Assembly: GCA_016868585.1 (NCBI GenBank) | Contig: VGGR01000002.1 | Coordinates: forward strand, 186,001 to 250,000 | DNA length: 64,000 bases | From: Bacteroidota bacterium | GTDB lineage: Bacteria > Bacteroidota > Bacteroidia > Chitinophagales > Chitinophagaceae | Reading direction: 5' to 3' | Shown here: one piece after another, positions 25,743-38,708 of the stretch | Layout of the letters: each line of letters begins with the position of its first letter | Position numbering within the stretch: position 1 is the first letter of the stretch | The notes under the pieces: generated by a model | Databases searched by the model: none | Seen by the model: the letters and a program-made list of their open reading frames with translations, nothing else | Told to the model about the DNA's origin: nothing | Position numbers and translations under genes: made by a program

Positions 25743-26471
25743 TTAGAGTTCCCTTACTTTAATATTCCTGAACCAAACTTTATCTCCGTGGTCCTGTAAG
25801 CCTAATTTACCTTGCTGGAACATGCCAAATCCTTTCATTTTAGCAAACTTGCTTCCAGCAATTAGTTTGACCCATTGATCGCCCCAAAGCTGCGTGGAAA
25901 TTATATTGGCCCCATTCATCCAAAAGTCTAATTGTCCATTCACCGCACGAATTTCCACCTGGTTCCATTCCCCAAAAGGTCGTACGGTTTCTTCTTTGCA
26001 AGAAATTAAGTCATAAAGATCCCCTGCACGATGCTTGATTATTTTACTATCAGGATGTCCCTTATTATCAAGCACTTGCATTTCAGGGGCGGACATCCAA
26101 GGCCAAATGTAGGTTGCCGTATCCTCGTGGATGTAGAACATAATGCCACTGTTTCCGTTTTGTGCAATTTTCCACTCCAGTTTTAAATGAAAATTTTTAA
26201 AATCCCTATCCGTCACGATATCACCACCATCAAGGAATTGCCGATCTTTTTTTTGTATAGGGTCAAGGAACAATACCCCATCCTCCACTTTCCATGCAGC
26301 TCCTACTGGTTTTCCTCCATACTTATGCCATCCAGTTGCCGATCTGCCATCAAACAAAAGCGTCCAGCCCTCCTTTTTTTCATCACGCGATAAAACATTC
26401 GGCTTTTGTTGCGCTATTAAAGAAGTGGTAAAAAAGACCAAAGGGATTGACAATAAATAAGAACGCATCAT
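25743..26471 (-). CDS. DUF1080 protein (3-keto-disaccharide hydrolase family), exported
   Basis: 242 residues with a signal peptide (MMRSYLLSIPLVFFTTSLIAQ). The PF06439 jelly-roll features are EGWTLLFDGRSATGWHKYGG near the start, DFKNFHLKLEWKIAQNGNSG, and the APEMQVLDN segment. Members hydrolyse or eliminate glycosidic bonds next to a 3-keto sugar. It is the last gene of the leftward operon, its ATG overlapping the cytochrome stop (TAATG). Periplasmic placement fits a substrate oxidised by the exported GMC enzyme of the divergent operon. Confidence 0.88.
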   Translation of the reverse strand: MMRSYLLSIPLVFFTTSLIAQQKPNVLSRDEKKEGWTLLFDGRSATGWHKYGGKPVGAAWKVEDGVLFLDPIQKKDRQFLDGGDIVTDRDFKNFHLKLEWKIAQNGNSGIMFYIHEDTATYIWPWMSAPEMQVLDNKGHPDSKIIKHRAGDLYDLISCKEETVRPFGEWNQVEIRAVNGQLDFWMNGANIISTQLWGDQWVKLIAGSKFAKMKGFGMFQQGKLGLQDHGDKVWFRNIKVREL

Positions 26472-26869
26472 TACTGTTTTAAGGTTAATATATATCGAAC
26501 CATAGTTTCAGCATCTTCCTGTGAAAGGTTTGAATGTGGAGTCATAGGGACATTGCCCCAATTACCCCCACCCCCTTTTATAATAAAAGAAGCAAGCACC
26601 GTAACCACGTCGTTGGGGGCATCGGCATATTTTTTGGCTACCTCCTTATACGAAGGCCCAATTAGCTTATCGTCAACTTTATGACAAGTCACGCAATCAT
26701 TCTTTCCAACTAAAGCTAATCCTTTAGCATAAACGGGATCCTTAACTGAGGCAACAGCAGCGGAATGAGTACTTGATCCCTCAGGGGCATCATCCATTTG
26801 TTTAGTGGAAGACTGGCAGGCAAAAAAACCAATTAGCCCTATAATCAAGAACGTGTAGCGACCACCCAT
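26471..26869 (-). CDS. Lipoprotein c-type cytochrome
   Basis: 132 residues. Lipobox GFFAC puts the lipidated cysteine at residue 18; a short acidic linker follows. The single haem motif CVTCH is at residues 59-63, and the distal methionine is probably in NVPMTPHSNLS. It is anchored facing the periplasm and likely accepts electrons. Its place between the TIM-barrel and DUF1080 genes, opposite a GMC dehydrogenase with a small subunit, makes it the likely electron acceptor for sugar oxidation. Confidence 0.9.
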   Translation of the reverse strand: MGGRYTFLIIGLIGFFACQSSTKQMDDAPEGSSTHSAAVASVKDPVYAKGLALVGKNDCVTCHKVDDKLIGPSYKEVAKKYADAPNDVVTVLASFIIKGGGGNWGNVPMTPHSNLSQEDAETMVRYILTLKQ

Positions 26870-26897
26870 ATCAAACAGTAATTAAATTTTAAAAGAA

Positions 26898-27953
26898 TTA
26901 ATCTAATCCCAATAGTTTTCTGTTAGCAGAAACATCTGTTCCACTAGATGCAAAATCATCAAAAGCTTTTTCAGTTACGCGAATGATATGATCCTTGATA
27001 AATGTTGCTCCCTCTGCAGCACCCTGCTCAGAGTGCTTGATGCAGCACTCCCACTCCATAACAGCCCAACCGGAGTAATCATACTGTGCAAGTTTACTGA
27101 AAATTGATTTGAAATCAACCTGCCCGTCCCCGGGAGATCTATACCGCCCCGCTCGGTTAGCCCAAGATTGATAGCCACCAAATGTCCCTTGTTTGCCAGT
27201 TGAATTGAATTCTGCGTCTTTGACGTGGAAAGCTTTTATTCGTTGGTGATAGTAATCAATGTAAGCCAAATAGTCCAGTTGTTGTAAAACAAAATGCGAA
27301 GGATCATATAGTAAACAAGCCCTGGGGTGCTGTTCAACAGCGTTCAAAAACATTTCATAAGTAATCCCATCAAAAATATCCTCCCCGGGATGTGCTTCAT
27401 AACAGACATCTACGCCACATTCATCAAAGTAATTAAGTATGGGTAGCCATCTCCTTGCTAATTCTTTAAAACCCTCTTCCACCAGACCAGCAGGCCTTTG
27501 CGGCCATGGGTGAAAAGTGTGCCACAACAAGGAACCGCTGAATGTTGGATGCGCCGTAAGCCCCATATGCTGAGAAGCTTTGGCACCAAACTTAACTTGC
27601 TCAACAGCCCAGGATGTTCTGGCGCTGGCGTTACCCTTAACTTCTATGGGCGCAAAACCATCGAACAAGGAATCATAAGCCGGATGAACGGCTATTAATT
27701 GTCCTTGCAGATGAGTAGAAAGCTCTGAAATTGTAAGTCCACATTCTTCAACAATACCATTTATTTCTTGCGCATAAGTTTTGCTTTCTGCAGCTTTCTT
27801 CAAATCTATACACCTTGAATCCCATGCAGGAATTTGCACAGCATGGTATCCAAGGGACTTAACCCACTGACATATTGAGCGTAATTCATTATAAGGAGCT
27901 TTGTCGCCCATAAATTGAGCGAGAAAAATACCAGGTCCTTTGATGGTTGTCAT
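26898..27953 (-). CDS. Sugar phosphate isomerase/epimerase-like TIM-barrel protein
   Basis: 351 residues of the xylose-isomerase-like fold (PF01261) without a signal peptide, so cytosolic. Metal-ligand motifs are VCYEAHPGEDIFDG (Glu), LYDPSHFVLQQLDY (Asp and His), FHVKDAEFN (His) and WAVMEWECCIKHSEQG (Glu). Likely reaction is isomerisation or lyase chemistry on a keto sugar, by context. It is 28 bases from the cytochrome gene and 9 from the Gfo/Idh/MocA gene. Confidence 0.85.
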   Translation of the reverse strand: MTTIKGPGIFLAQFMGDKAPYNELRSICQWVKSLGYHAVQIPAWDSRCIDLKKAAESKTYAQEINGIVEECGLTISELSTHLQGQLIAVHPAYDSLFDGFAPIEVKGNASARTSWAVEQVKFGAKASQHMGLTAHPTFSGSLLWHTFHPWPQRPAGLVEEGFKELARRWLPILNYFDECGVDVCYEAHPGEDIFDGITYEMFLNAVEQHPRACLLYDPSHFVLQQLDYLAYIDYYHQRIKAFHVKDAEFNSTGKQGTFGGYQSWANRAGRYRSPGDGQVDFKSIFSKLAQYDYSGWAVMEWECCIKHSEQGAAEGATFIKDHIIRVTEKAFDDFASSGTDVSANRKLLGLD

Positions 27954-27962
27954 AAATAATAA

Positions 27963-29117
27963 TTAATGGGTAAACTCAACCCAGGTTTGTTGTTGACTGG
28001 ATTTAATCATCGCTTCTACAAATACCATTCCTCGCAAACCTTCTTTAGACCCGGGGAAATCGGTGCAAACAGCTGAGGGCAATGCATCATTTTCCTTTGC
28101 TAAAATGGCCAGTGCAAAATTGCGATACAAATTGGCAAATGCCTCTAAATACCCTTCGGGATGTCCAGCTGGGGTACGTGAATTATGAGTGGCATACTCA
28201 CTCAAATAACCAGTACCAGCTCTCCAGCACTCTGCAGGACGGTCTGGCCATACGATTTGCAGCGAATTATTATCTTCTTGCTTCCAGGAGAGCCCTCCCT
28301 TTTCTCCATAAATCCTGATGGATATATTATTTTCGGCTCCCGCTGCAACTTGCGTAGCCATCAATACACCAGTGGCCCCGTTATTAAATTGCAAAAGTGC
28401 CGCACCGTCATCATCAATTTTTCTACCGGTAACAATCGTATTGACAGCTGCACAGAGCCTACTCACTTGCAAACCGGATACATACTCTGCCAGATTAAAT
28501 GCATGTGTTCCTATATCGCCCATTGCCCCTCCTAATCCACTTCGGTTGGGATCTGTTCTCCAATCAGCTTGCTTTTGTTTGCTTCCTTCAAGGTAAGTGT
28601 GCAACCAACCCTGCGGATATTCTACAAAGACTTTACGGATTTCTCCCAATAAGCCTGCTTGAATTAGTTGCCGAGCCTGTTTTACCATGGGATAACCAGT
28701 ATACGTATGACAAAGCATAAAGAACCTGTCAGACGCCAACACTTTTTTATGTAATGAACGGGCCTCACCTAGTGAAAAAGTCATGGGTTTTTCCAGAATA
28801 ACGTGAAAACCTGCATCAAGTGCCAATACTGCGGGTTCATAGTGCACATGATTAGGCGTAACGATGCAAATCACCTCTGCCCTCACTGCAGTTGGGAGTA
28901 ACGCCTCTTGATGAATCAACGTATGAAATGAAGGGTATACTCTATCCCTCGAAAGTTGCAATTCTTCGCCTGCATTTTGGGAAACAATTGGATCGGCGCT
29001 AAAAGCACCTGCCACCAGTTCATAGTGACCATCCATTGAAAACGCAAGACGATGAATGGAACCAATAAAAGCCCCTTTGCCACCGCCAATCATGGCGATC
29101 CGGAGTTTTCTATGCAT
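27963..29117 (-). CDS. Gfo/Idh/MocA family oxidoreductase
   Basis: 384 residues, no signal peptide, so cytosolic. The Rossmann start RIAMIGGGKGAFIGSIHR, the HVILEKPMTFSLGEA block with the catalytic lysine, and GGAMGDIGTHAFNLAEYVSG are all intact. NAD(P)-dependent oxidation or reduction of a cyclic sugar alcohol or keto sugar is the family reaction. First gene of the leftward half of the sugar cluster, divergent from the MFS permease with a 52-base shared control region. Confidence 0.88.
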   Translation of the reverse strand: MHRKLRIAMIGGGKGAFIGSIHRLAFSMDGHYELVAGAFSADPIVSQNAGEELQLSRDRVYPSFHTLIHQEALLPTAVRAEVICIVTPNHVHYEPAVLALDAGFHVILEKPMTFSLGEARSLHKKVLASDRFFMLCHTYTGYPMVKQARQLIQAGLLGEIRKVFVEYPQGWLHTYLEGSKQKQADWRTDPNRSGLGGAMGDIGTHAFNLAEYVSGLQVSRLCAAVNTIVTGRKIDDDGAALLQFNNGATGVLMATQVAAGAENNISIRIYGEKGGLSWKQEDNNSLQIVWPDRPAECWRAGTGYLSEYATHNSRTPAGHPEGYLEAFANLYRNFALAILAKENDALPSAVCTDFPGSKEGLRGMVFVEAMIKSSQQQTWVEFTH

Positions 29118-29169
29118 AGCAAAATAATTGAAGTATTAAATGTACTATTTTTATCTTCAATTGCTTAGA

Positions 29170-30378
29170 ATGAAAACAACAACAAGAATACAATTAGCGT
29201 TCATGATGTTTCTTAACTTTTTTGTGTGGGGAATTTGGTTTGTAACAATGGGTACTTATTTAACTACCCAATTGGACGCCGGTGGTGTTGAAATAGGACT
29301 TGCGTATGGAACGCAATCCCTCGGAGCCATAGTGGCACCTTTTATCATTGGGCTGATTGCGGACAAATATTTTGCTGCCCAACGTATTTTGGGCGTGTTG
29401 CATTTGACTGGTGGTTTATTACTGTATTATCTTTCGTCACAAACCAATTTCAATGCTTTCTACCCGTATTTGTTAACCTATATGATCGTTTATATGCCCA
29501 CACTTGCATTGGTCAATGCAATAGCATTCAAGCAAATGGCCAGCCCTGAAAAAGAATTTTCCGCAATAAGAGTTTGGGGTACAATCGGATGGATTGCTTC
29601 GGGTCTTTTAATTGGTTGGCTTGCCTTGGAGTCATCAGGCACGCTGGATCAAACATTTAAAATTGCGGCGCTTGTGTCATTGGTATTAGGCGTGTATAGC
29701 TTCATGCTGCCCAACACGCCCCCCCCTAAAGCAGGAACACAAACAACGTTTGGCGAAATCATAGGTACGGATGCCATCGGTCTTTTAGGAGATAAAAACT
29801 ATTTAGTTTTTTTTATAACCTCGATGTTGATTTGCATACCCCTTGCGTTTTATTACCAGGAGACAAATATTTTCTTAAATGAAGTAGGCGTTACTAATGC
29901 CGCTCCCAAGATGACGATGGGGCAAATGAGCGAAACACTATTCCTGTTTCTTATGCCTCTTTTCTTTTCAAGATTGGGAGTAAAAAAAATGTTGTTGATT
30001 GGAATGGCTGCCTGGGTGATTCGTTATCTTTGTTTTGGTTTTGGGGATGCGGGGGCTGGTGTTGGTCTTTTGTACGCAGGAATTATTTTACATGGAATTT
30101 GCTATGATTTCTTCTTTGTTACCGGGCAGGTCTATACGGATCAGCGAGCCGGTGAAAAAATCCGATCGTCCGCACAAGGCATGATAACCCTTGCAACATA
30201 TGGAGCAGGTATGCTGGCTGGATTCTGGCTGGCTGGACTTATAGCCGACCAATACAAAACAGCTGCAGGGCATGATTGGAATGCCATTTGGATGGTACCA
30301 ACACTAATTGCCACCACCATACTTGTGCTGTTTTTTCTGCTATTTAAAGATCCCTCCTCCATTAAAAAAGAAATATGA
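29170..30378 (+). CDS. MFS permease, nucleoside:H+ symporter (NupG) type
   Basis: About 402 residues with 12 hydrophobic segments; ATG 29170 gives the canonical MKTTTRIQLAFMMFLNFFVWG start. YGTQSLGAIVAPFIIGLIAD, ALVNAIAFKQM and the C-terminal YTDQRAGEKIRSSAQGM match PF03825. Members described so far move nucleosides, but here the permease heads a sugar operon, so import of an oxidised sugar or glycoside is a reasonable inference. The stop overlaps the next ATG (ATGA), indicating coupling. Confidence 0.85.
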   Translation: MKTTTRIQLAFMMFLNFFVWGIWFVTMGTYLTTQLDAGGVEIGLAYGTQSLGAIVAPFIIGLIADKYFAAQRILGVLHLTGGLLLYYLSSQTNFNAFYPYLLTYMIVYMPTLALVNAIAFKQMASPEKEFSAIRVWGTIGWIASGLLIGWLALESSGTLDQTFKIAALVSLVLGVYSFMLPNTPPPKAGTQTTFGEIIGTDAIGLLGDKNYLVFFITSMLICIPLAFYYQETNIFLNEVGVTNAAPKMTMGQMSETLFLFLMPLFFSRLGVKKMLLIGMAAWVIRYLCFGFGDAGAGVGLLYAGIILHGICYDFFFVTGQVYTDQRAGEKIRSSAQGMITLATYGAGMLAGFWLAGLIADQYKTAAGHDWNAIWMVPTLIATTILVLFFLLFKDPSSIKKEI

Positions 30379-31271
30379 GTATAAAAAATACTACTAGAAG
30401 AGATTTACTTAAAAAGGCGGGGCAACTGGCGCTGGCGGCTTCGCTTCCCCTTAATCCAACCTACGCGACAGCTTATTCAACAATTCAGCCATTCAACAAA
30501 GGGAGTATTAATCACTCTGTTTGCAGTTGGACATATGGTTTCTTGTCGCTGGATGAATTATGTAGATTGGTTAAGGAATTAAAAATAGACACCATTGATT
30601 TGGTAGCCCCTAAAGACTTTGCCCTATTAAAAGAGCATGCAGTAAACTGTTCGATGTGTTACACAGCAGGAAAGGTAAGCCTAACGCAAGGGTGGAACGA
30701 CCCAACAAATCACGCATGGCTAATCAAAGATTACCTGGAGACTATTCCAATGATAGCCGAAGCAGGGTTTAAAAATCTGATTTGCTTTTCTGGAAATAGG
30801 AACGGAATGGACAACCAGACAGGGCTTCTAAATTGCGCAAGGGGGCTTCAGCAAATCTTACCAGTTGCAGAAAAATTTGGTATTTCAATACAAATGGAAC
30901 TTTTCAATAGTAAAATAGATCACAAAGACTACATGGCAGACAACTCCGCTTGGGGAGTTCAATTGTGCAAAGAGCTTGGGTCAACAAATTTTAAACTGTT
31001 GTACGATATCTACCACATGCAAATAAGCGAAGGAGATATCATTCGTACCATTCAAGATAATCATGCCTATTTTGGCCACTACCACACTGCCGGTGTGCCG
31101 GGCAGACATGAAATAGATGAATCACAGGAACTGTACTACCCTGCAATCATGCGAGCCATTGCCGCAACAGGTTATACAGGGTATGTGGCGCAAGAGTTTA
31201 TCCCAAGTGGCAAGACAAAGGAAGAGAAAATAGCCGCGCTTAGAAAAGCTATTCAAATTTGTACGATTTAA
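30375..31271 (+). CDS. Exported TIM-barrel isomerase (hydroxypyruvate-isomerase-like)
   Basis: 298 residues with a Tat-like leader (TTRRDLLKKAGQLALAASL). The barrel shows QMELFNSKIDHKDY (Glu), LYDIYHMQISEGD (Asp, His), GHYHTAGVPGRHEID (His) and YVAQEFIPSG (Glu) as metal ligands, the pattern of hydroxypyruvate isomerase and related PF01261 proteins. It overlaps the permease stop by 4 bases. Substrate unknown; by context an oxidised sugar. Confidence 0.83.
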   Translation: MSIKNTTRRDLLKKAGQLALAASLPLNPTYATAYSTIQPFNKGSINHSVCSWTYGFLSLDELCRLVKELKIDTIDLVAPKDFALLKEHAVNCSMCYTAGKVSLTQGWNDPTNHAWLIKDYLETIPMIAEAGFKNLICFSGNRNGMDNQTGLLNCARGLQQILPVAEKFGISIQMELFNSKIDHKDYMADNSAWGVQLCKELGSTNFKLLYDIYHMQISEGDIIRTIQDNHAYFGHYHTAGVPGRHEIDESQELYYPAIMRAIAATGYTGYVAQEFIPSGKTKEEKIAALRKAIQICTI

Positions 31272-31284
31272 AAAAATAAGAGCT

Positions 31285-32970
31285 ATGCCAAAAGAGACTA
31301 TGTATGATGCTATTGTTGTGGGGTCCGGAATCAGCGGAGGATGGGCAGCAAAAGAGTTAACAGAAAAAGGTTTAAATGTTCTTTTATTGGAAAGAGGGAG
31401 AGATATTGAACATATTAAAGACTATGTGAATGCAACCAAAGAGTCCTGGGAGTTTCCGCACAGGGGTATAAGACCGACACAGGAAATGTTGGAAGATTAT
31501 CCTGTATTGAAAAGAGATTATTCGCTCAATGAAACGGTACTGGATCTTTGGGTCAAAGACAAAGAGTGCCCCTACACAGAGACAAAGCCATTTTCCTGGT
31601 TCAGAGGATATCATGTGGGCGGACGCTCGCTGATGTGGGGCCGACAGAGTTATCGGTTTAACAAATGGGATTTTGAAGCGAATCTTGTGGATGGGCATGG
31701 AGTGGATTGGCCTATTCGATATGATGAACTGGCGCCATGGTATAGCCACGTAGAAAAATTTGCAGGGATCCAAGGAAGCAAAGAAGGGCTTGAGGTACTT
31801 CCCGATGGTGAGTTTATGCCACCCATGGATTTAAACTGTGTTGAAAAAGATGTTGCTGAAAAATTAAAGAAATATTATAAGGGGGAACGTCATTTAATTA
31901 TTGGCAGAAGTGCTAATATAACGGTGCCACATGAAGGCAGAACTAATTGTCAATATAGAAATCGTTGTTGGAGAGGCTGTCCCTTTGGAGGTTATTTTAG
32001 CACACAATCCTCTACCCTGCCCGCTGCAATGAAAACCGGAAAACTTACTCTTCGCCCCTTTTCCATAGTTACCCAGGTTCTGTATGACAAAAACACACAA
32101 AAGGCAAAAGGTGTAGAAGTGCTAGATGCTACAGATAATAAAACAGTACAATATCAGGCTAAAATTGTTTTCCTATGTGCCTCCTCTTTTAATTCTACCT
32201 GGATATTAATGAACAGTGCCACTGATATTTGGCCTGATGGACTTGGAAGCAGCAGCGGAGAATTAGGACATAACGTAATGGATCATCACTTCAGATGTGG
32301 TGCTGGCGCCACCGCTGAGGGATACGGCGATCGCTATCACTATGGAAGAAGACCTACAGGAGTCTATGTGCCCCGTTTCAGAAATGTATACGACGACAAA
32401 CGCGCCTATGTAAGAGGTTTTGGGTATCAGGGTGGAGCCGGAAGAGGCAGAGGTGTCCATGTGGCTGAATTTACCATTGGCGCAGAATTGAAGGAGGCAT
32501 TAAGTGTGCCTAGCGATAACTGGCATATGGGTATTATGGGATTTGGAGAAATGCTGCCTTATCATGAGAATAAAATCAGCTTGAATAAAAATGTAAAAGA
32601 TAAGTGGGGATTACCCGTATTAGATATGGATGTAGAAATAAAAGAGAATGAAAAGAAGATGAGAGAAGACATGATGAATGACGCCAAAGAAATGTTGGAG
32701 GCGGCGGGATTAAAAAATGCTTACACCTATGATTACGGTTACGAGGTAGGAATGGGAATTCATGAAATGGGAACAGCGCGTATGGGCCGCGAATCCAAAT
32801 CTTCTGTGCTAAATGGTAATAATCAAATTTGGGATTGCAAGAATGTATTTGTAACAGATGGCTCCTGCATGACTAGCGCTTCTTGCGTAAACCCGTCGTT
32901 GACCTATATGGCTATGACAGCACGTGCTGCCAATTTTGCCGTTGAAGAACTTAAAAAAGGTAACCTATAA
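31285..32970 (+). CDS. GMC family FAD-dependent sugar dehydrogenase, large subunit
   Basis: 561 residues. FAD site YDAIVVGSGISGGWAAKELT with ADP-ribose contact LLLERG. The C-terminal catalytic block has HEMGTARMG with the active-site histidine and SCVNPSLTYMAMTARAA with the conserved asparagine. It lacks its own signal peptide. The next gene encodes the leader-bearing small subunit, so export as a Tat-hitchhiking complex is likely, as in gluconate-2-dehydrogenase and glucoside-3-dehydrogenase-type systems. A cysteine-rich insert (NCQYRNRCWRGCPFGGYF) could hold a cluster, as reported in some family members. Confidence 0.92.
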   Translation: MPKETMYDAIVVGSGISGGWAAKELTEKGLNVLLLERGRDIEHIKDYVNATKESWEFPHRGIRPTQEMLEDYPVLKRDYSLNETVLDLWVKDKECPYTETKPFSWFRGYHVGGRSLMWGRQSYRFNKWDFEANLVDGHGVDWPIRYDELAPWYSHVEKFAGIQGSKEGLEVLPDGEFMPPMDLNCVEKDVAEKLKKYYKGERHLIIGRSANITVPHEGRTNCQYRNRCWRGCPFGGYFSTQSSTLPAAMKTGKLTLRPFSIVTQVLYDKNTQKAKGVEVLDATDNKTVQYQAKIVFLCASSFNSTWILMNSATDIWPDGLGSSSGELGHNVMDHHFRCGAGATAEGYGDRYHYGRRPTGVYVPRFRNVYDDKRAYVRGFGYQGGAGRGRGVHVAEFTIGAELKEALSVPSDNWHMGIMGFGEMLPYHENKISLNKNVKDKWGLPVLDMDVEIKENEKKMREDMMNDAKEMLEAAGLKNAYTYDYGYEVGMGIHEMGTARMGRESKSSVLNGNNQIWDCKNVFVTDGSCMTSASCVNPSLTYMAMTARAANFAVEELKKGNL

Positions 32971-32981
32971 TATTTTCAGTT

Positions 32982-33557
32982 ATGAAAAGAAGAGAATTAC
33001 TTAAATCGATTGCACTGCTAACAGGAGTTGCAGTAGTTGGTGGAGAGCTTTTCTTAACGGGATGTAAATCAACCGCGGGACCCGTGTCGGCATTTACCCC
33101 GGCTACAATTGCCTTGCTGGATGAACTTGCAGAAACTATAATTCCAACCACTGATACCCCTGGTGCCAAAGCCGCGCAGACGGGTGCTTTTATGAAAGTG
33201 ATGATTGAAGATTGCTATACCAAAGAAGAGCAAGATGCTTTCATCAAAGGAGTAGCCATCTTGAATGAAAGATGTCAAAAAGAGTTCAATCGCCCATTTG
33301 TTGAATTAGCGGCATCTCAAAAGCTAACCCTATTACAAAAGTTAGAACGTGAGGCAAAAGACTTTAATACCAAACGTGAAGAAAACAAGGAGATAAAAAC
33401 GCCCCCTCATTATTACTCAATGATGAAACAGTTGACACTTTGGGGATTCTTTTCTTCGGAAACGGGTATGACCAAAACCCTAAGGCATGTTCCTGTTCCA
33501 GGACGCTATGACGGAAATGTACCCTATATCAAAGGAGAAAAAGCGTGGGCAGAATAA
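32982..33557 (+). CDS. Gluconate 2-dehydrogenase subunit 3 family lipoprotein
   Basis: 191 residues. The N terminus KRRELLKSIALLTGVAVVGG is a twin-arginine-type leader ending in a lipobox with Cys28 (LTGC). The core ALLDELAETIIPTTDTPGAKA is the PF13618 hallmark. It is the small partner that carries the GMC subunit across the membrane and anchors it. It begins 11 bases after the GMC stop. Confidence 0.9.
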   Translation: MKRRELLKSIALLTGVAVVGGELFLTGCKSTAGPVSAFTPATIALLDELAETIIPTTDTPGAKAAQTGAFMKVMIEDCYTKEEQDAFIKGVAILNERCQKEFNRPFVELAASQKLTLLQKLEREAKDFNTKREENKEIKTPPHYYSMMKQLTLWGFFSSETGMTKTLRHVPVPGRYDGNVPYIKGEKAWAE

Positions 33558-33567
33558 TCAGCAAACT

Positions 33568-34437
33568 ATGCAAAAAAGAAGAGAATTTTTAAAGTCCGTA
33601 GGTTGTGTTGCCGGCGCAACAGTAGTAGTGGCCAACCCAGGCTGGGCTGCTTGGTTTTCAAAAGAGCCCACCGCAAAAAAATTTGGAATCCAACTTTATA
33701 CGCTACGAGATATAATCAATGGCAAAGCAAAAGAAGTCATTACAGCGTTAGCCAAATTTGGATATACCCAAATTGAAAGTTATGAAGGGCCTCAGGGGAT
33801 CTACTGGGATATGAAGCCCGGCGAGTTTAAAAAATTTACGGCTGATTTGGGTATGGAACTTATATCTACCCACTGTAATATCTATACGAACTTTGAACAA
33901 AAAGTAGAAGAAGCGGCCGCTGCAAACTTGAAATATTTGATTTGTCCATGGGTTGGGCCACAGCGGAGTATTGACAACTACAAAAAATTAGCCACCGTAT
34001 TTAATGAAAAAGCAAAACGCTGCGCCTCATATGGAGTGCAATTTGCGTATCACAATCATGATTATTCTTTCAAAAAAATGAATGGTGTTTATCCCCAGGA
34101 TATTTTGATGCAAGAAACAGATCCGGCATTGGTCTGTTTTGAAATGGATATGTATTGGGTTGTTTCAGCTGGAGAAGATCCACTTGAATGGCTAAAGAAA
34201 TATCCCGGACGCTTTGAATTGAGTCATATAAAAGACAGAAGCCAATTCCCCATAAACAAAGAAAAATATGAATCAGTGGACTTGGGAACGGGAAGTATTG
34301 ACTTCAAACAACTGATTCCAGATGCAAAGCAATTAGGGCTTAAATACATACTGATGGAACAAGAATTTTATCCAGGAGGGTCTCCACTACTTGCGGCAGA
34401 AGTGGGCGCATCCTACCTGAAAAAAATAAAATTCTAA
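33568..34437 (+). CDS. Exported sugar phosphate isomerase/epimerase-like protein
   Basis: About 289 residues; ATG 33568, 10 bases after the previous stop, gives a twin-arginine-like leader (QKRREFLKSVGCVAGATVVV). The TIM-barrel ligands are FAYHNHDYSFKKM, CFEMDMYWVVSAGEDP, LSHIKDRSQ and YILMEQEFY. It is the third PF01261 protein of the cluster and the second with an export leader. An upstream ATG at 33487 would overlap the small subunit gene and hide the leader, so it is rejected. Last gene of the rightward operon. Confidence 0.85.
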   Translation: MQKRREFLKSVGCVAGATVVVANPGWAAWFSKEPTAKKFGIQLYTLRDIINGKAKEVITALAKFGYTQIESYEGPQGIYWDMKPGEFKKFTADLGMELISTHCNIYTNFEQKVEEAAAANLKYLICPWVGPQRSIDNYKKLATVFNEKAKRCASYGVQFAYHNHDYSFKKMNGVYPQDILMQETDPALVCFEMDMYWVVSAGEDPLEWLKKYPGRFELSHIKDRSQFPINKEKYESVDLGTGSIDFKQLIPDAKQLGLKYILMEQEFYPGGSPLLAAEVGASYLKKIKF

Positions 34438-34450
34438 GCCCTCCACATCA

Positions 34451-35179
34451 TTACAGTGCATTTAATTTTTGCTTTATAAGTTGGATGGCTTCAATTACAA
34501 TACCGGGATTGGTATAACTCTCCTTGCTATTTGTAAATGAGGGATGAATAAATTGCATTGCCGATTCTTTTAATGAACGAAGGGAGCTGTGGAACTCCAC
34601 GCAGCCTGTTTGCTTTGCCAGCTCCACTATGGAACCAGTATGCACCCCACTTCCAGGCATTATAATTATCCGATCATCCGCTTTTGCCTGCAGAGTAGCT
34701 ATCAATGAAGCTCCCTCAGGCGCAGTTGGCTTTTGACCAGCAGTTAAAATCCGCTCACAACCTAATTGAATCAACTGTTCCAAGGCGGTAAAGGGGTCTG
34801 CGCATCGATCAAAAGCCCGATGAAAAGTAACTTTAAGCGGGTAAGCACAATCCATTAGCTGTAACACCCTATCTTGATCAATGCTTCCGTCGGTATTCAG
34901 CAAACCTAGGACAACTCCATCAAAACCCAGCGAACGACAATACTGGATATCCTGTTTCATGATTTCAAACTCTTCTTCCGTATAAAGAAAATCCCCAGGC
35001 CTGGGTCGAATCATTGGGTAGAGGGGCAGGTCAAATTTTTGTCTGCAAAGCCTCAATAAGCCCGCACTAGCGGTGATACCCCCTTCGGACAATCCAGCAC
35101 ATAATTCTATTCTGTCTGCGCCTCCCTTTACAGCAAGTTGTGTTGTTTCAAAATCTGTCGTGGCTATTTCAATCAACAT
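34451..35179 (-). CDS. cutC: CutC family protein
   Basis: 242-residue TIM-barrel protein (PF03932). It starts MLIEIATTDFETTQLAVKGGADRIELCAGLSEGG and has PRPGDFLYTEEEF and TFHRAFDRC motifs of the family. CutC was named for copper homeostasis in E. coli, but its biochemical role is unsettled. It follows the glycosylasparaginase gene by 9 bases in the same transcript, so an amino-sugar role deserves consideration, by context only. Confidence 0.92.
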   Translation of the reverse strand: MLIEIATTDFETTQLAVKGGADRIELCAGLSEGGITASAGLLRLCRQKFDLPLYPMIRPRPGDFLYTEEEFEIMKQDIQYCRSLGFDGVVLGLLNTDGSIDQDRVLQLMDCAYPLKVTFHRAFDRCADPFTALEQLIQLGCERILTAGQKPTAPEGASLIATLQAKADDRIIIMPGSGVHTGSIVELAKQTGCVEFHSSLRSLKESAMQFIHPSFTNSKESYTNPGIVIEAIQLIKQKLNAL

Positions 35180-35188
35180 GGTCTATAC

Positions 35189-36223
35189 TTATTTAAACCA
35201 ACTTTGGGCTTTTACCAATTCACTTCGTTGAGCATCCTTATAAGCAAAGGAAAATCCTGGATGAATAGCAAAGGATCCCACCCCTCCTTGAATTGATAGT
35301 GCTATAAAAGCTACTTGAATATCTTTTGAACGCTCCTTCTTGATATCAATAATGCGTTGAATCACTTCTGCACATGCTTGTTGAGGAGTTCTTCCTTGGC
35401 GGATCAACTCTACCACGGTTGACGCACCTGCAACACGTATTACATCCTCTCCCTGTCCGGTTGCTACACAGGCCCCCACTGAATTATCTACAAATAGCCC
35501 AGCTCCAATAATTGGAGAGTCCCCTACTCGACCACGCATTTTAAACCCAGCTCCTGAAGTTGTACAACTAGCACTTAAGTTGCCATGTAGATCCATGGCT
35601 AACATGCCAATGGTATCGTGATTCCATTCCCCATTTTGAAGTCGTGTTGGAGCAAATGGACCATGATCATGTTGATTTCCCCTATTAATGGATGGAGATT
35701 TATATTGAGATTGTTGCAACCAATTTGAATAAGCTGCCTGAGCAGCTGTGGACAATTTTTCAGGCTCCAACGTAAACCCTTCGGCAATAGCAAATTGTTG
35801 TGCCCCTTCACCAACCAACATTACATGTGGGGTCTTTTCCATGACTCGTCTTGCTACACTAACAGGATGTTTGATGCGCTCTAAAAAAGCAACTGCACCA
35901 CAATTGTAATTATGATCCATTATAGACGCATCCAAGGTTACATGCCCATCTCTGTCTGGATTAGCGCCCAACCCCACACAACAGTTAATGGAATCTTCTG
36001 TATGGCGTACGCCTTGTTCAACAGCATCTAAGGCCAATCCTCCTTTTTCAAGGATCGCCCATGCAGGTACGTTAGCTTCAAGTCCAGCATCCCAGGTTGA
36101 AAGGACAATAGGCCCCTTGCTCTTTGGCCTTTTTTGCTGCGACAAACCTTTTGAAATGCCATGTACAGTTAGTCCTGCTGTTAGCATACCCATTTTTGAT
36201 AAAAAATTTCTTCTGTTAAACAT
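35189..36223 (-). CDS. N4-(beta-N-acetylglucosaminyl)-L-asparaginase (glycosylasparaginase)
   Basis: About 344 residues; ATG 36223 gives a leader FNRRNFLSKMGMLTAGLTVHG with an RR pair. This Ntn-hydrolase self-cleaves at HDTIGM; the nucleophile is Thr204. GAGFKMRGRVGDSPIIGAG and ATGQGEDVIRVAG are the substrate pocket motifs. It releases GlcNAc-amine from asparagine of N-glycoproteins. Exported location and the GH20 hexosaminidase encoded divergently support glycoprotein glycan breakdown. cutC lies downstream in the same operon. Confidence 0.9.
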   Translation of the reverse strand: MFNRRNFLSKMGMLTAGLTVHGISKGLSQQKRPKSKGPIVLSTWDAGLEANVPAWAILEKGGLALDAVEQGVRHTEDSINCCVGLGANPDRDGHVTLDASIMDHNYNCGAVAFLERIKHPVSVARRVMEKTPHVMLVGEGAQQFAIAEGFTLEPEKLSTAAQAAYSNWLQQSQYKSPSINRGNQHDHGPFAPTRLQNGEWNHDTIGMLAMDLHGNLSASCTTSGAGFKMRGRVGDSPIIGAGLFVDNSVGACVATGQGEDVIRVAGASTVVELIRQGRTPQQACAEVIQRIIDIKKERSKDIQVAFIALSIQGGVGSFAIHPGFSFAYKDAQRSELVKAQSWFK

Positions 36224-36386
36224 GATGTCAAGGTAAGAATAAATATTAAAACTTTTAAGCATCGAAACCTATCGAAAAAGCGCGATCCGGTAACTGAAGG
36301 GCAGATGACCACTTTGTGCAATTCAAAAACAAGGCAAGTGCGGTGTATTAGACTAATTGGTAATTTAGACCTCAAATTCAATCTAC

Positions 36387-38708
36387 ATGCGTCATCTGCT
36401 GTTTTTTTTATTTTTTCCATTCATGGGAAATGCGCAGCAATTATTGGTACCAAGACCTGCGTATCAACTACAAGGAGAGGGTAATTATATTTTATCAAAT
36501 CGATGTTCCTATTTTATAGAAAGCGAAAATGCGCAAGCACGCAACACCCTTCAACTCTTCTTGAGAGAAATGAAAACACAGTGCAACATCCAACTTGAGG
36601 AAGTAAAATTGAAACAACAAGCCGCAATTCAGATACAGTATAAAAGTGGAAAAGATAAAGCCATCCCCACGTATGAATTGCGCATTGACAAAGGAGGTAT
36701 TCAGCTAACTGTTACAAGCGCTGAAGCCTTGCACCATGCTACCCGAACATTACTGCAACTTATTACCAGAGGAGACGATAATCAATCGGTACTTCCTTAC
36801 ATCAAAATTGAAGACTTCCCTCGTTTTCAATACCGGGGCATGCACTTGGATGTTGGCAGACATTTTTTCCCAGTGAGTTTTATCAAGCAGTATATCGATT
36901 GGTTATCCTTTCATAAACTCAATAAATTTCATTGGCATTTAACAGAAGATCAAGGCTGGAGAATTGAAATAAAAAAATACCCTGCACTCACCAATGTGGG
37001 AGCCTGGCGAAATGGAACAATCATTGGGCGTCATCCTGGCAAAGGAAATGATAATCTTCTTTATGGTGGCTTTTATACTCAAGAAGAAATAAGAGAAGTA
37101 GTAGCTTATGCGCAAGCCCGATTTGTGGACGTAATCCCTGAAATTGAAATGCCGGGCCATAGCAGTGCTGCAATTGCAGCCTATCCCTTTCTAAGTTGTT
37201 TCCCTGAAAAGCCAACCGTGATCCCATACAATATGATTTCCGAAAAATCGGTTGCTGCACAAAAAAGTGGTCGTATTAAATTGGTACAGGAAACCTGGGG
37301 GGTATTTGAGGATGTTTTTTGCGCGGGGAAAGAATCAACTTTTGAATTTCTTCAACAAGTCATTGATGAGATCATTCCTCTTTTCCCCTCTCCTTATTTT
37401 CACATTGGCGGAGATGAATGCCCGAAGTCACATTGGCAATCATGTTCTTTATGTCAAAAAAGAATAAAGGACCTTGGCTTAAAAGACGAACATGAATTGC
37501 AGAGTTATTTCATTCAGCGAATAGAAAAGTATCTCAATAGCAAAGGAAAAACACTGATTGGTTGGGATGAGATTTTGGAAGGCGGACTAGCCCCCAATGC
37601 AATTGTGATGAGCTGGCGAGGTGAGGAAGGGGGAATAGAAGCAGCCAGGCAAGGGCATTCAGTAATAATGACACCCGGCAACCCGGTTTACTTTGACCAT
37701 TCCCAAGCACTTGCCGAGGACTCAGTGACCATTGGAGGATATAACCCTATTGAAAAAGTATATGCCTACAATCCGCTTCCGCAAGAGATCCCTGCCAATA
37801 ATGCTCATCTGGTTCTTGGGGCACAAGCCAACGTTTGGACAGAGTATATGAAAAATGAAGATAAGATCGCTTATATGATCTTTCCGCGTATTGCAGCCTT
37901 AAGCGAATCATTATGGACCCCTCAAGACAAAAAAAACTGGACTGAATTTGAGAAGAATATAGGCCCCCTCATTAACAGATACGAGCAGTGGGGAGTTAAA
38001 CCAAGCAGGGCATACTATGAAATGATCAGCAAACTGAACCCTGAGCAAAATAAAAATGGAGTTGAATTGGCCTTAACCAATAAATCTGCAGATGGAAAAA
38101 TACATTGGATATCCCCCATTAAAGCCAATTATGAAAAACCGATTTTGATACAGCAATCTGCAATGTATCAAGCGCAATTTGTTGGTAAAAACAGGGAGGT
38201 GAAGAGCTCTTATTCCCAACAATTTGAGATCAATAAAGCAACGGGCAAGGATATTACACTACGCAATCAACCGTCAAAAAATTATTCAGGGAATGGTGGA
38301 TTCACTTTGGTAAATGGAATACGAAGTCAATCGGGCAATAACATACACTTCAGAAACTATTTGGGATTTGAAGGGGAGGATTTGGAGGCCACCATTGACC
38401 TGGGAAAGGCCATGTCAATACGAAGGGTGAAAGGTTATTTTCTACATCAACCGGCCAGCTGGATTCACCGACCGCTTGATATGCAAGTATCCATGTCCAT
38501 GGATGGCATAGACTTTAAGGCCGTTGAGGGTTCCGTAAAAATAGTTTTTGAGACAGCAGAAAACAATACTGGGCATATTTTGCTCAATTTCAATAAAAAA
38601 GCAAGATTCATTAACATTATTATTAAGAATTCAGGACTGATAAAAATTGGTGACCCTGGAGAAGGTAATAAATCCTGGCTCTTTATTGATGAAATTCAAA
38701 TTGATTGA
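36387..38708 (+). CDS. Beta-N-acetylhexosaminidase, GH20
   Basis: 773 residues with a signal peptide (MRHLLFFLFFPFMGNAQ). The GH20b domain (about 20-145) is followed by the catalytic barrel with FRYQ-type start FQYRGMHLDVGRHFFP. The catalytic Asp-Glu pair is D343-E344 in HIGGDECPKSHW. The C-terminal part from about residue 640 resembles a discoidin (F5/8) carbohydrate-binding fold. It removes terminal GlcNAc or GalNAc from chitin oligomers or glycoproteins in the periplasm or at the surface. The next gene, nagB, handles the resulting amino sugar after phosphorylation. Confidence 0.95.
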   Translation: MRHLLFFLFFPFMGNAQQLLVPRPAYQLQGEGNYILSNRCSYFIESENAQARNTLQLFLREMKTQCNIQLEEVKLKQQAAIQIQYKSGKDKAIPTYELRIDKGGIQLTVTSAEALHHATRTLLQLITRGDDNQSVLPYIKIEDFPRFQYRGMHLDVGRHFFPVSFIKQYIDWLSFHKLNKFHWHLTEDQGWRIEIKKYPALTNVGAWRNGTIIGRHPGKGNDNLLYGGFYTQEEIREVVAYAQARFVDVIPEIEMPGHSSAAIAAYPFLSCFPEKPTVIPYNMISEKSVAAQKSGRIKLVQETWGVFEDVFCAGKESTFEFLQQVIDEIIPLFPSPYFHIGGDECPKSHWQSCSLCQKRIKDLGLKDEHELQSYFIQRIEKYLNSKGKTLIGWDEILEGGLAPNAIVMSWRGEEGGIEAARQGHSVIMTPGNPVYFDHSQALAEDSVTIGGYNPIEKVYAYNPLPQEIPANNAHLVLGAQANVWTEYMKNEDKIAYMIFPRIAALSESLWTPQDKKNWTEFEKNIGPLINRYEQWGVKPSRAYYEMISKLNPEQNKNGVELALTNKSADGKIHWISPIKANYEKPILIQQSAMYQAQFVGKNREVKSSYSQQFEINKATGKDITLRNQPSKNYSGNGGFTLVNGIRSQSGNNIHFRNYLGFEGEDLEATIDLGKAMSIRRVKGYFLHQPASWIHRPLDMQVSMSMDGIDFKAVEGSVKIVFETAENNTGHILLNFNKKARFINIIIKNSGLIKIGDPGEGNKSWLFIDEIQID

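Follow-up and report, generated by a model that had tools for sequence, protein, structure and literature searches.

How might a bacterium open glycosides without a glycoside hydrolase, and on which side of the inner membrane would each step take place? These questions are raised by nine genes at positions 25743-34437 of the window, the 64,000-nucleotide stretch of contig VGGR01000002.1 from a Bacteroidota bacterium (Chitinophagaceae) that we analyzed. We put at roughly 0.8 the probability that this block encodes a glycoside pathway that is linked to respiration, needs no hydrolase and is divided between the two sides of the inner membrane. The nine genes form one real module, held together in many Bacteroidota: in 20 of the 80 named loci fetched, all nine fall inside a 9-kb stretch, and 17 more loci have eight of them. 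These 80 are the best of at least 591 loci centred on the gene for a putative hydratase and thus weighted to close relatives. An initial annotation had taken the nine for a single module and had offered their joint conservation in relatives as a check; these counts come down on its side.

The putative hydratase and the proposed route

The cytosolic half of the reading starts from a leaderless PF01261 barrel (26898-27953), which aligns over residues 1-350 with PDB entry 8ro4 (AtHYD, a 2-hydroxy-3-keto-glucal hydratase) at 64% identity. Among 80 relatives of this barrel, none has a hydrophobic leader and one has a twin-arginine (RR) motif. The protein is a close relative of AtHYD and is probably a cytosolic 2-hydroxy-3-keto-glucal hydratase. 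The initial annotation had left it as a plain barrel and had missed hydration inside the cell, a step that we infer because of the close match to a solved hydratase. Preliminary evidence that AtHYD hydrates 2-hydroxy-3-keto-glucal is given in PMC10628242, which also assigns a Gfo enzyme to the reduction of 3-keto-glucose to glucose (statements from this and the other PMC sources below refer to parts of those texts). The Gfo protein of the block (27963-29117) has 3v5n as its nearest solved relative (E 2e-109), is matched in 72 of the 80 named loci, with an RR motif in 3 of the 72, and is proposed to be a cytosolic 3-keto-glucose reductase.

What the nine sequences show is the families, the closeness of the putative hydratase to AtHYD, the kept eliminase residues, the leaders and the conservation of the genes together. 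From these we infer the following reactions, including the nature of the substrate, the cargo of the permease and the whole of the step given to the barrel timTat1. Outside the membrane, the GMC flavoprotein, exported on its partner subunit 3 by the twin-arginine translocation (Tat) pathway, would oxidize a glycoside at C3, and the electrons would pass from it to the lipoprotein cytochrome c and on to a terminal oxidase. The 3-keto-glycoside would then be split by beta-elimination by timTat2, a barrel resembling the eliminase AtOGE, with the DUF1080 protein perhaps serving other linkages; the products would be the aglycone and 2-hydroxy-3-keto-glucal, or a 3-keto sugar if hydrated at once. timTat1 would work on the carbon beside the ketone (epimerization at C4 or C2, or 2-keto/3-keto exchange) and could in this way draw non-gluco or stray keto-glycosides into the same route. 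The permease, of the major facilitator superfamily (MFS), would bring in the keto-sugar or glycal; inside, the AtHYD relative would hydrate it to 3-keto-glucose and the Gfo enzyme would convert this to glucose. The host genome (1.77 Mb, completeness 99.4%) has one TatC match and two COX1 matches.

The nine open reading frames are all uninterrupted and lie back to back, as seen from their listing and from reading the N-termini, with gaps, in order, of -1, 28, 9, 22, -4, 13, 11 and 10 bases (Table 1). The left arm runs from DUF1080 to Gfo and the right arm from the permease to timTat2. Pfam places them in PF06439, PF00034, PF01261 (three times, at 121, 73 and 38 bits against a cut-off of 31), the GFO_IDH_MocA domains, PF03825 (Nuc_H_symport), GMC_oxred N and C, and PF13618; none of the nine reaches a curated NCBIfam cut-off. 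Twin-arginine motifs were read by eye at the N-termini of two barrels and of the PF13618 subunit, and a hydrophobic leader at that of the DUF1080 protein; for relatives, leader calls are a simple RR motif test and a simple hydrophobicity test on the N-termini. The start of timTat2 is most likely at 33568 and not at the listed 33487, because the twin-arginine leader begins there. Reading frames, gaps of -4 to 28 bases and Pfam thus confirm the layout and families given by the initial annotation. The family matches agree with its GMC and subunit 3 pair beside a cytochrome c and with its placing of the DUF1080 protein in the 3-keto-disaccharide hydrolase family, and its permease and cytosolic Gfo enzyme are likewise supported by sequence.

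Table 1. Features of the nine-gene block, in window coordinates
Feature	Position	Strand	Basis
DUF1080 / 3-keto-disaccharide hydrolase family, Sec-type leader	25743..26471	-	PF06439, 156 bits
Small c-type cytochrome, lipoprotein-like leader	26471..26869	-	PF00034, 41 bits; CVTCH at residue 59
Leaderless PF01261 barrel, close AtHYD relative	26898..27953	-	phmmer to 8ro4, E 8.7e-161
Gfo/Idh/MocA oxidoreductase	27963..29117	-	PF01408/PF22725/PF02894
Divergent intergenic region	29118..29139, or to 29169 with the permease start at the second ATG		
MFS permease, nucleoside-H+ symporter family	29140..30378	+	PF03825, 374 bits
timTat1, PF01261 barrel 1, predicted Tat-exported	30375..31271	+	RR motif, PF01261
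GMC flavoprotein, no own leader	31285..32970	+	PF00732/PF05199
Gluconate 2-dehydrogenase subunit 3 family, Tat leader and lipobox	32982..33557	+	PF13618, 129 bits
timTat2, PF01261 barrel 2, predicted Tat-exported, AtOGE-like	33568..34437	+	8bvk match

Proposed cleavage of the keto-glycoside

Which protein would split the oxidized glycoside? timTat2 matches 8bvk, the entry that PMC10628242 names as AtOGE, with E 2.7e-18 by phmmer and 1.1e-38 by profile, and it also matches the group 8tct/8tcd/8tcs. Its residues H102, H162, H164, E192, D194, H220 and E264 are invariant in all 36 aligned sequences and can be matched by motif and spacing to H66, H132, H134, E161, D163, H189 and E233 of AtOGE (PMC10628242), so that timTat2 appears to carry the AtOGE metal site and catalytic His. 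Counted from the first metal His, the last His lies 57 residues away in timTat2 vs 58 in AtOGE, and the last Glu 101 vs 102; the spacing of the early His differs more (66 vs 60). An RR motif is found in 45 of 48 timTat2 relatives. The timTat2-like genes of four proteobacterial clusters (25-30% identical) also bear leaders, read as Sec-like in three and as an RR pair in Xanthomonas. We propose that timTat2 is a periplasmic 3-keto-O-glycoside beta-eliminase. The initial annotation could name no role for either exported barrel; with the AtOGE residues this no longer applies to timTat2, and timTat1 has a different site, of epimerase/isomerase type.

The DUF1080 protein is also a proposed periplasmic 3-keto-glycoside cleaving enzyme, a role that rests on PMC9007349 and the Pfam name. 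Its solved relatives include 8tda, 8rr2 and 9fbe (E ~1e-44), and among 57 related open reading frames 50 have a hydrophobic leader and none an RR motif. It might cleave the keto-glycoside alone, with both Tat barrels as auxiliary epimerases and no separate eliminase, and genetic support for a DUF1080 protein as the 3'-ketolactose hydrolase of Caulobacter (PMC9007349) speaks for this. We nevertheless consider it unlikely: timTat2 retains the AtOGE catalytic set, a DUF1080 match is missing in 28 of the 80 named loci (in some through contig ends), and in a Ketogulonicigenium cluster a timTat2-like gene with a leader accompanies GMC, subunit 3, hydratase and Gfo, with DUF1080 neither matched nor annotated in the stretch.

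Elsewhere in the host genome, a tandem DUF1080 pair lies next to a Gfo-like gene whose start is Tat-like, with KR (L067:8339-11055), and a two-domain DUF1080 copy adjoins a gene with an RR start (L068:7234-9987). These genes suggest further keto-sugar loci.

Conservation and the proposed oxidation

At least four gene orders can be read from the maps of the 20 complete loci: the window's divergent order in 7, a Pedobacter and Flavobacteriaceae order in 9, a Hymenobacter order in 3 and a Hufsiella order in 1. Within the genus, 25 regions around the GMC orthologue contain the complete nine-gene stretch in 16 cases, one (L036) with a broken timTat1, and seven of the nine incomplete regions end at a contig edge; one genus member (G016:C157:10438-11260) has a timTat1 that falls into two frames and contains a stop. 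Across the phylum, 40 timTat1 regions were fetched from 93 strong-hit genomes, with all nine genes in 7 of the 40 and GMC within ~9 kb of timTat1 in 20.

Co-occurrence was counted in 395 Bacteroidota genomes, with thresholds of E <1e-40 for timTat1, E <=1e-80 for the hydratase and E <=1e-100 for GMC, the last of which admits paralogues of ~50% identity. timTat1 was found in 93 genomes, GMC relatives in 110 and the hydratase in 73. The hydratase occurs with GMC in all 73 of its genomes, and timTat1 with GMC in 88 of 93 and with the hydratase in 65 of 93. Of the named loci, 61 span 15 kb or more, and in 57 of these timTat1 and GMC are concordant (both present in 35, neither in 22).

The module is also found on plasmids. 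That of Hymenobacter volaticus (L236) carries all nine genes in a single direction, with a DUF1080 just 25% identical. The Xanthomonas sacchari plasmid (L239) carries seven by similarity (Gfo 29%, timTat2 25%), with DUF1080 and cytochrome c by annotation only, and plasmids of Palleronia and Paracoccus carry timTat1-GMC-subunit 3-DUF1080 (the Palleronia DUF1080 by annotation) together with hydratase, Gfo and a timTat2-like gene. The GMC proteins of L239, L236 and a Halomonas plasmid (L243) are 66-69% identical to that of the window. A plasmid-borne module, whole or mostly so, in two phyla suggests horizontal spread. timTat1 was found in none of 289 Alphaproteobacteria at E 1e-40, an empty answer that by itself shows little, and the Palleronia and Paracoccus copies therefore look acquired. 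On the Halomonas plasmid, several module genes match in two or more pieces.

A number of observations weigh against the proposed pathway. Fructose and glucose dehydrogenases and pyranose oxidases make up most of the solved relatives of the GMC protein, and its link to the cytochrome is not strict, because three genus members keep the cytochrome without a GMC orthologue. The leaders of relatives pass the hydrophobicity test in 26 of 48 cases for timTat2 and 14 of 46 for timTat1. For none of ten DUF1080 genes of Pedobacter is a lactose phenotype reported, and redundancy is suggested (PMC9007349). A GMC match near timTat1 is missing in 20 of the 40 phylum-wide regions, timTat1 lying sometimes among unrelated genes, and the co-occurrence counts ignore the kinship of the genomes. 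The hydratase is missing in 28 of the 93 timTat1 genomes; 23 genomes have timTat1 and GMC without it, and a pathway running in these would need some other exit. Two metagenome-assembled loci (L165, L170) have timTat1 and subunit 3 adjacent, separated by little space and without a GMC match. Four genus members (G001, G004, G017, G021) have the hydratase without a GMC orthologue or timTat1, and three of these (L071-L073) keep cytochrome, DUF1080, Gfo and timTat2 in place. Finally, the hydratase outside the Bacteroidota is not tied to GMC oxidation: in six such hydratase-bearing genomes (Proteobacteria by record titles), GMC is absent in three, distant (27-29% identity) in two and close in one.

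The block could accordingly be imagined as two neighbouring pathways, an oxidative unit of GMC and timTat1 next to a Gfo/hydratase/eliminase unit fed by another dehydrogenase, as the clusters of G001, G017 and G021 (which also lack subunit 3) and the five of six non-Bacteroidota hydratase genomes without a close GMC relative would allow. Such a division is decidedly unlikely, given that in the Bacteroidota sample the hydratase is always accompanied by a GMC relative (73/73 genomes) and that the nine genes re-assemble in several orders, plasmid included.

The single pathway also requires a dehydrogenase that acts on glycosides. The best solved relatives of the GMC protein are the large subunits of fructose and glucose dehydrogenases. 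Its residues H493 and N536 and Cys 222, 228 and 232 are kept in 44 of 44 aligned sequences; the three Cys presumably bind an iron-sulphur cluster, as in those dehydrogenases. No leader can be read at the N-terminus of the GMC protein itself, and relatives of subunit 3 have an RR motif in 44 of 44 cases (lipobox-like in 26 of 44), which fits co-export of the pair, a mechanism known from fructose and glucose dehydrogenases. Compared at the family level, the GMC and subunit 3 families, the conserved residues and the leader are compatible with a glucoside 3-dehydrogenase containing flavin adenine dinucleotide and its Tat-borne partner. We propose the GMC protein as the catalytic subunit of a periplasmic glycoside 3-dehydrogenase, subunit 3 as its export and electron-transfer partner, and the cytochrome, which has a lipobox-like Cys in its leader and a match in 63 of the 80 named loci, as its electron acceptor.

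The same relatives would suit a respiratory dehydrogenase of free sugars (glucose/fructose type), with the barrels and Gfo serving inositol or rare-sugar catabolism, and the barrels are weakly similar to inosose dehydratase and psicose epimerase models. This we regard as very improbable: the NCBIfam cut-offs for such functions are all missed widely, the relation to AtHYD is strong, the AtOGE-type residues are invariant, and the DUF1080 family and the conserved block suit keto-glycosides. A chance run of sugar genes is rejected, because the block has re-assembled repeatedly in different orders.

Two side observations concern further GMC genes: in one locus (L118) five GMC matches follow timTat1 in tandem, hinting at a set of substrate-specific dehydrogenases, and the host genome has a second GMC and subunit-3-like pair in L066 (G000:C2:108701-110416), with a GMC 30-33% identical.

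For the permease, the match to TIGR00889 (364 bits) is under the cut-off of 446; its proposed cargo is the sugar left by elimination, or the keto sugar. The clusters of Palleronia and Paracoccus contain annotated ABC transporter genes and gave no MFS match. Translation of the permease may begin at 29170 instead of 29140, which would make the divergent gap 52 and not 22 bases; of 23 relatives compared, 8 have a gap of 51-57 bases. An 11-base palindrome-like word, GCAAACGTTTG, which we take to be of the LacI-operator type, occurs exactly once per region, in the gfo/mfs gap, in nine regions (L042, L044, L046, L047, L048, L049, L050, L051 and L053). These nine are among 23 readable gaps, the word being present in 9 of 12 genomes of at least 2.6 Mb and in none of 11 genomes of at most 2.1 Mb; it is absent from the whole window, the divergent gap 29118-29169 included. 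Four proteobacterial plasmids have annotated LacI genes close to the module.

The initial annotation saw no glycoside hydrolase, which is true of the nine; a GH20-like frame starts 2 kb downstream at 36387. It belongs to a set of cutC, glycosylasparaginase-like (aga) and GH20-like genes (window 34451-38708) that lies 3' of the block in much of the genus. These were rejected as module members, since cutC, aga and gh20 flank the block in none of the 80 named loci; in L135, from another genus of the same family, cutC and aga also adjoin the block and the GH20-like gene does not. Genes for pfk and pyk flank it in 2 of the 80 (L157 and L181, a Terrimonas and a Chitinophagaceae metagenome-assembled genome), both with the order pfk-pyk-block. 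The names pfk, pyk, aga and gh20 come from reading the sequences.

Known systems and the extra exported barrel

The route of oxidation, elimination, hydration and reduction is already published, and this kind of pathway is not new. The initial annotation had missed this; close clusters are described in Caulobacter (PMC9007349) and Agrobacterium (PMC10628242). The Agrobacterium tumefaciens operon described in PMC10628242 encodes GlycDH, OGE, HYD and Gfo, and its dehydrogenase was expressed together with a protein bearing a TAT-pathway signal; the main text, so far as it was covered, does not contain the words periplasm, cytochrome or bacteroid. By gene family the two systems have in common a PF01261 barrel of the eliminase type and the same close hydratase family, and, on the proposed reading, they would also share a dehydrogenase with a Tat-signal protein, a Gfo reductase and the four steps. 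The block here adds cytochrome c, DUF1080, an MFS permease and a third, epimerase/isomerase-type barrel, and its eliminase-like barrel is predicted to be Tat-exported, unlike that of the operon as described. Kastner 2024 (Angew Chem) is reportedly cited in connection with the same operon.

PMC9007349 describes a related Pedobacter dehydrogenase and a similar Caulobacter cluster, LacABC with DUF1080. The Caulobacter cluster has genetic support for lactose use and is connected with lactose, salicin and raffinose. By the kinds of gene described, it resembles the block in a three-part dehydrogenase, an exported DUF1080, a transporter, two epimerase-like genes and a reductase; compared in this way, one such "epimerase" can be named here as a hydratase and another as an eliminase-like barrel.

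Two further systems are similar in outline. The BT2157-2160 pathway of Bacteroides thetaiotaomicron is a 3-keto-glycoside route with a DUF1080 protein, in which oxidation is said to be carried out by a Gfo-type enzyme using nicotinamide adenine dinucleotide. We take the solved entries 8tda (DUF1080) and 8tct, 8tcd and 8tcs (PF01261) to come from the study of that pathway. Membership in it was rejected, the Gfo protein scoring 29.6 bits against the 750 of NCBIfam BT_2158_fam, the BT_2158-type dehydrogenase; the DUF1080 protein there is BT2157, according to PMC9007349. The levoglucosan pathway LgdA-B1-B2-C combines oxidation, PF01261 elimination, PF01261 hydration and Gfo reduction (PMC7676230, PMC10066097). 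It oxidizes with a Gfo-family enzyme, a task that would fall here to the GMC pair, and membership was again rejected (130 bits against 650 for the LgdA model). No description of the nine-gene set or of its Bacteroidota form was found in the literature searched, most subscription papers being outside its reach. New here appear to be this Bacteroidota form, with an exported eliminase-like barrel, a cytosolic hydratase, a cytochrome and a permease of its own, and timTat1 in addition, and the division in Bacteroidota of oxidation and elimination outside the membrane from hydration and reduction inside.

This leaves the question of what timTat1 does. Its relatives have an RR motif in 43 of 46 cases, and its invariant residues in 42 sequences include E175, D211, H214, H237, R244 and E274, presumably the metal and acid-base residues of ketose 3-epimerases. 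The conserved region aligns with hydroxypyruvate isomerase (Hyi), psicose 3-epimerases and YcjR, an Escherichia coli barrel that acts on 3-keto-glycosides and is cytosolic. Among the comparisons made by hhalign, the timTat1 profile is closest to Hyi (E 9e-14), with YcjR farther away (2e-8), then the timTat2 profile (8e-5) and the hydratase profile (2e-3); because Hyi and YcjR are nearer than timTat2, timTat1 is by sequence not another AtOGE-type eliminase. It scores 85.9 bits against the cut-off of 353 of TIGR03234, the hydroxypyruvate isomerase equivalog. Enzymes of the Hyi and YcjR types work through an enediolate next to a carbonyl, and we propose that timTat1 is a keto-glycoside epimerase or isomerase. 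Two reactions fit: C4 epimerization, or 2-keto/3-keto exchange. YcjR is annotated as a 3-dehydro-D-guloside 4-epimerase, and 3-keto-galactoside and 3-keto-guloside are the same compound. 2-Keto forms arise spontaneously from aryl C-glycosides (PMC10628242, PMC13273386), and one of them escaped cleavage (PMC13273386).

timTat1 has no published role in the literature searched. Its stand-alone copies show no common theme among 19 neighbouring proteins scanned of 140 (CTP synthase, YidC, transporters, acetyl-CoA synthetase and others), and a copy on a Parabacteroides plasmid has no obvious keto-sugar gene among the annotations of that stretch. We tentatively suggest, at less than even odds, that timTat1 defines a family of keto-glycoside epimerases or isomerases that work in the periplasm and convert 3-keto-galactosides (or dead-end 2-keto forms) to 3-keto-glucosides, a family frequent among Bacteroidota and rare in the other groups sampled, and that 2-hydroxy-3-keto-glucal or a 3-keto sugar enters the cell through the nucleoside-type MFS permease.

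About one fifth of the 395 sampled Bacteroidota genomes carry parts of the module (hydratase 73, timTat1 93). Because oxidative opening needs no glycoside hydrolase, predictions of diet that count only hydrolases would miss this pathway. From the division between the two sides of the membrane follows a new predicted cargo for a widespread family of permeases, and timTat1 offers a testable candidate for the fate of 3-ketogalactose, stated as unknown in PMC9007349. If the suggested conversion is true, one GMC dehydrogenase and one glucose-forming exit would serve many glycosides, and the fate of 3-ketogalactose would be answered.

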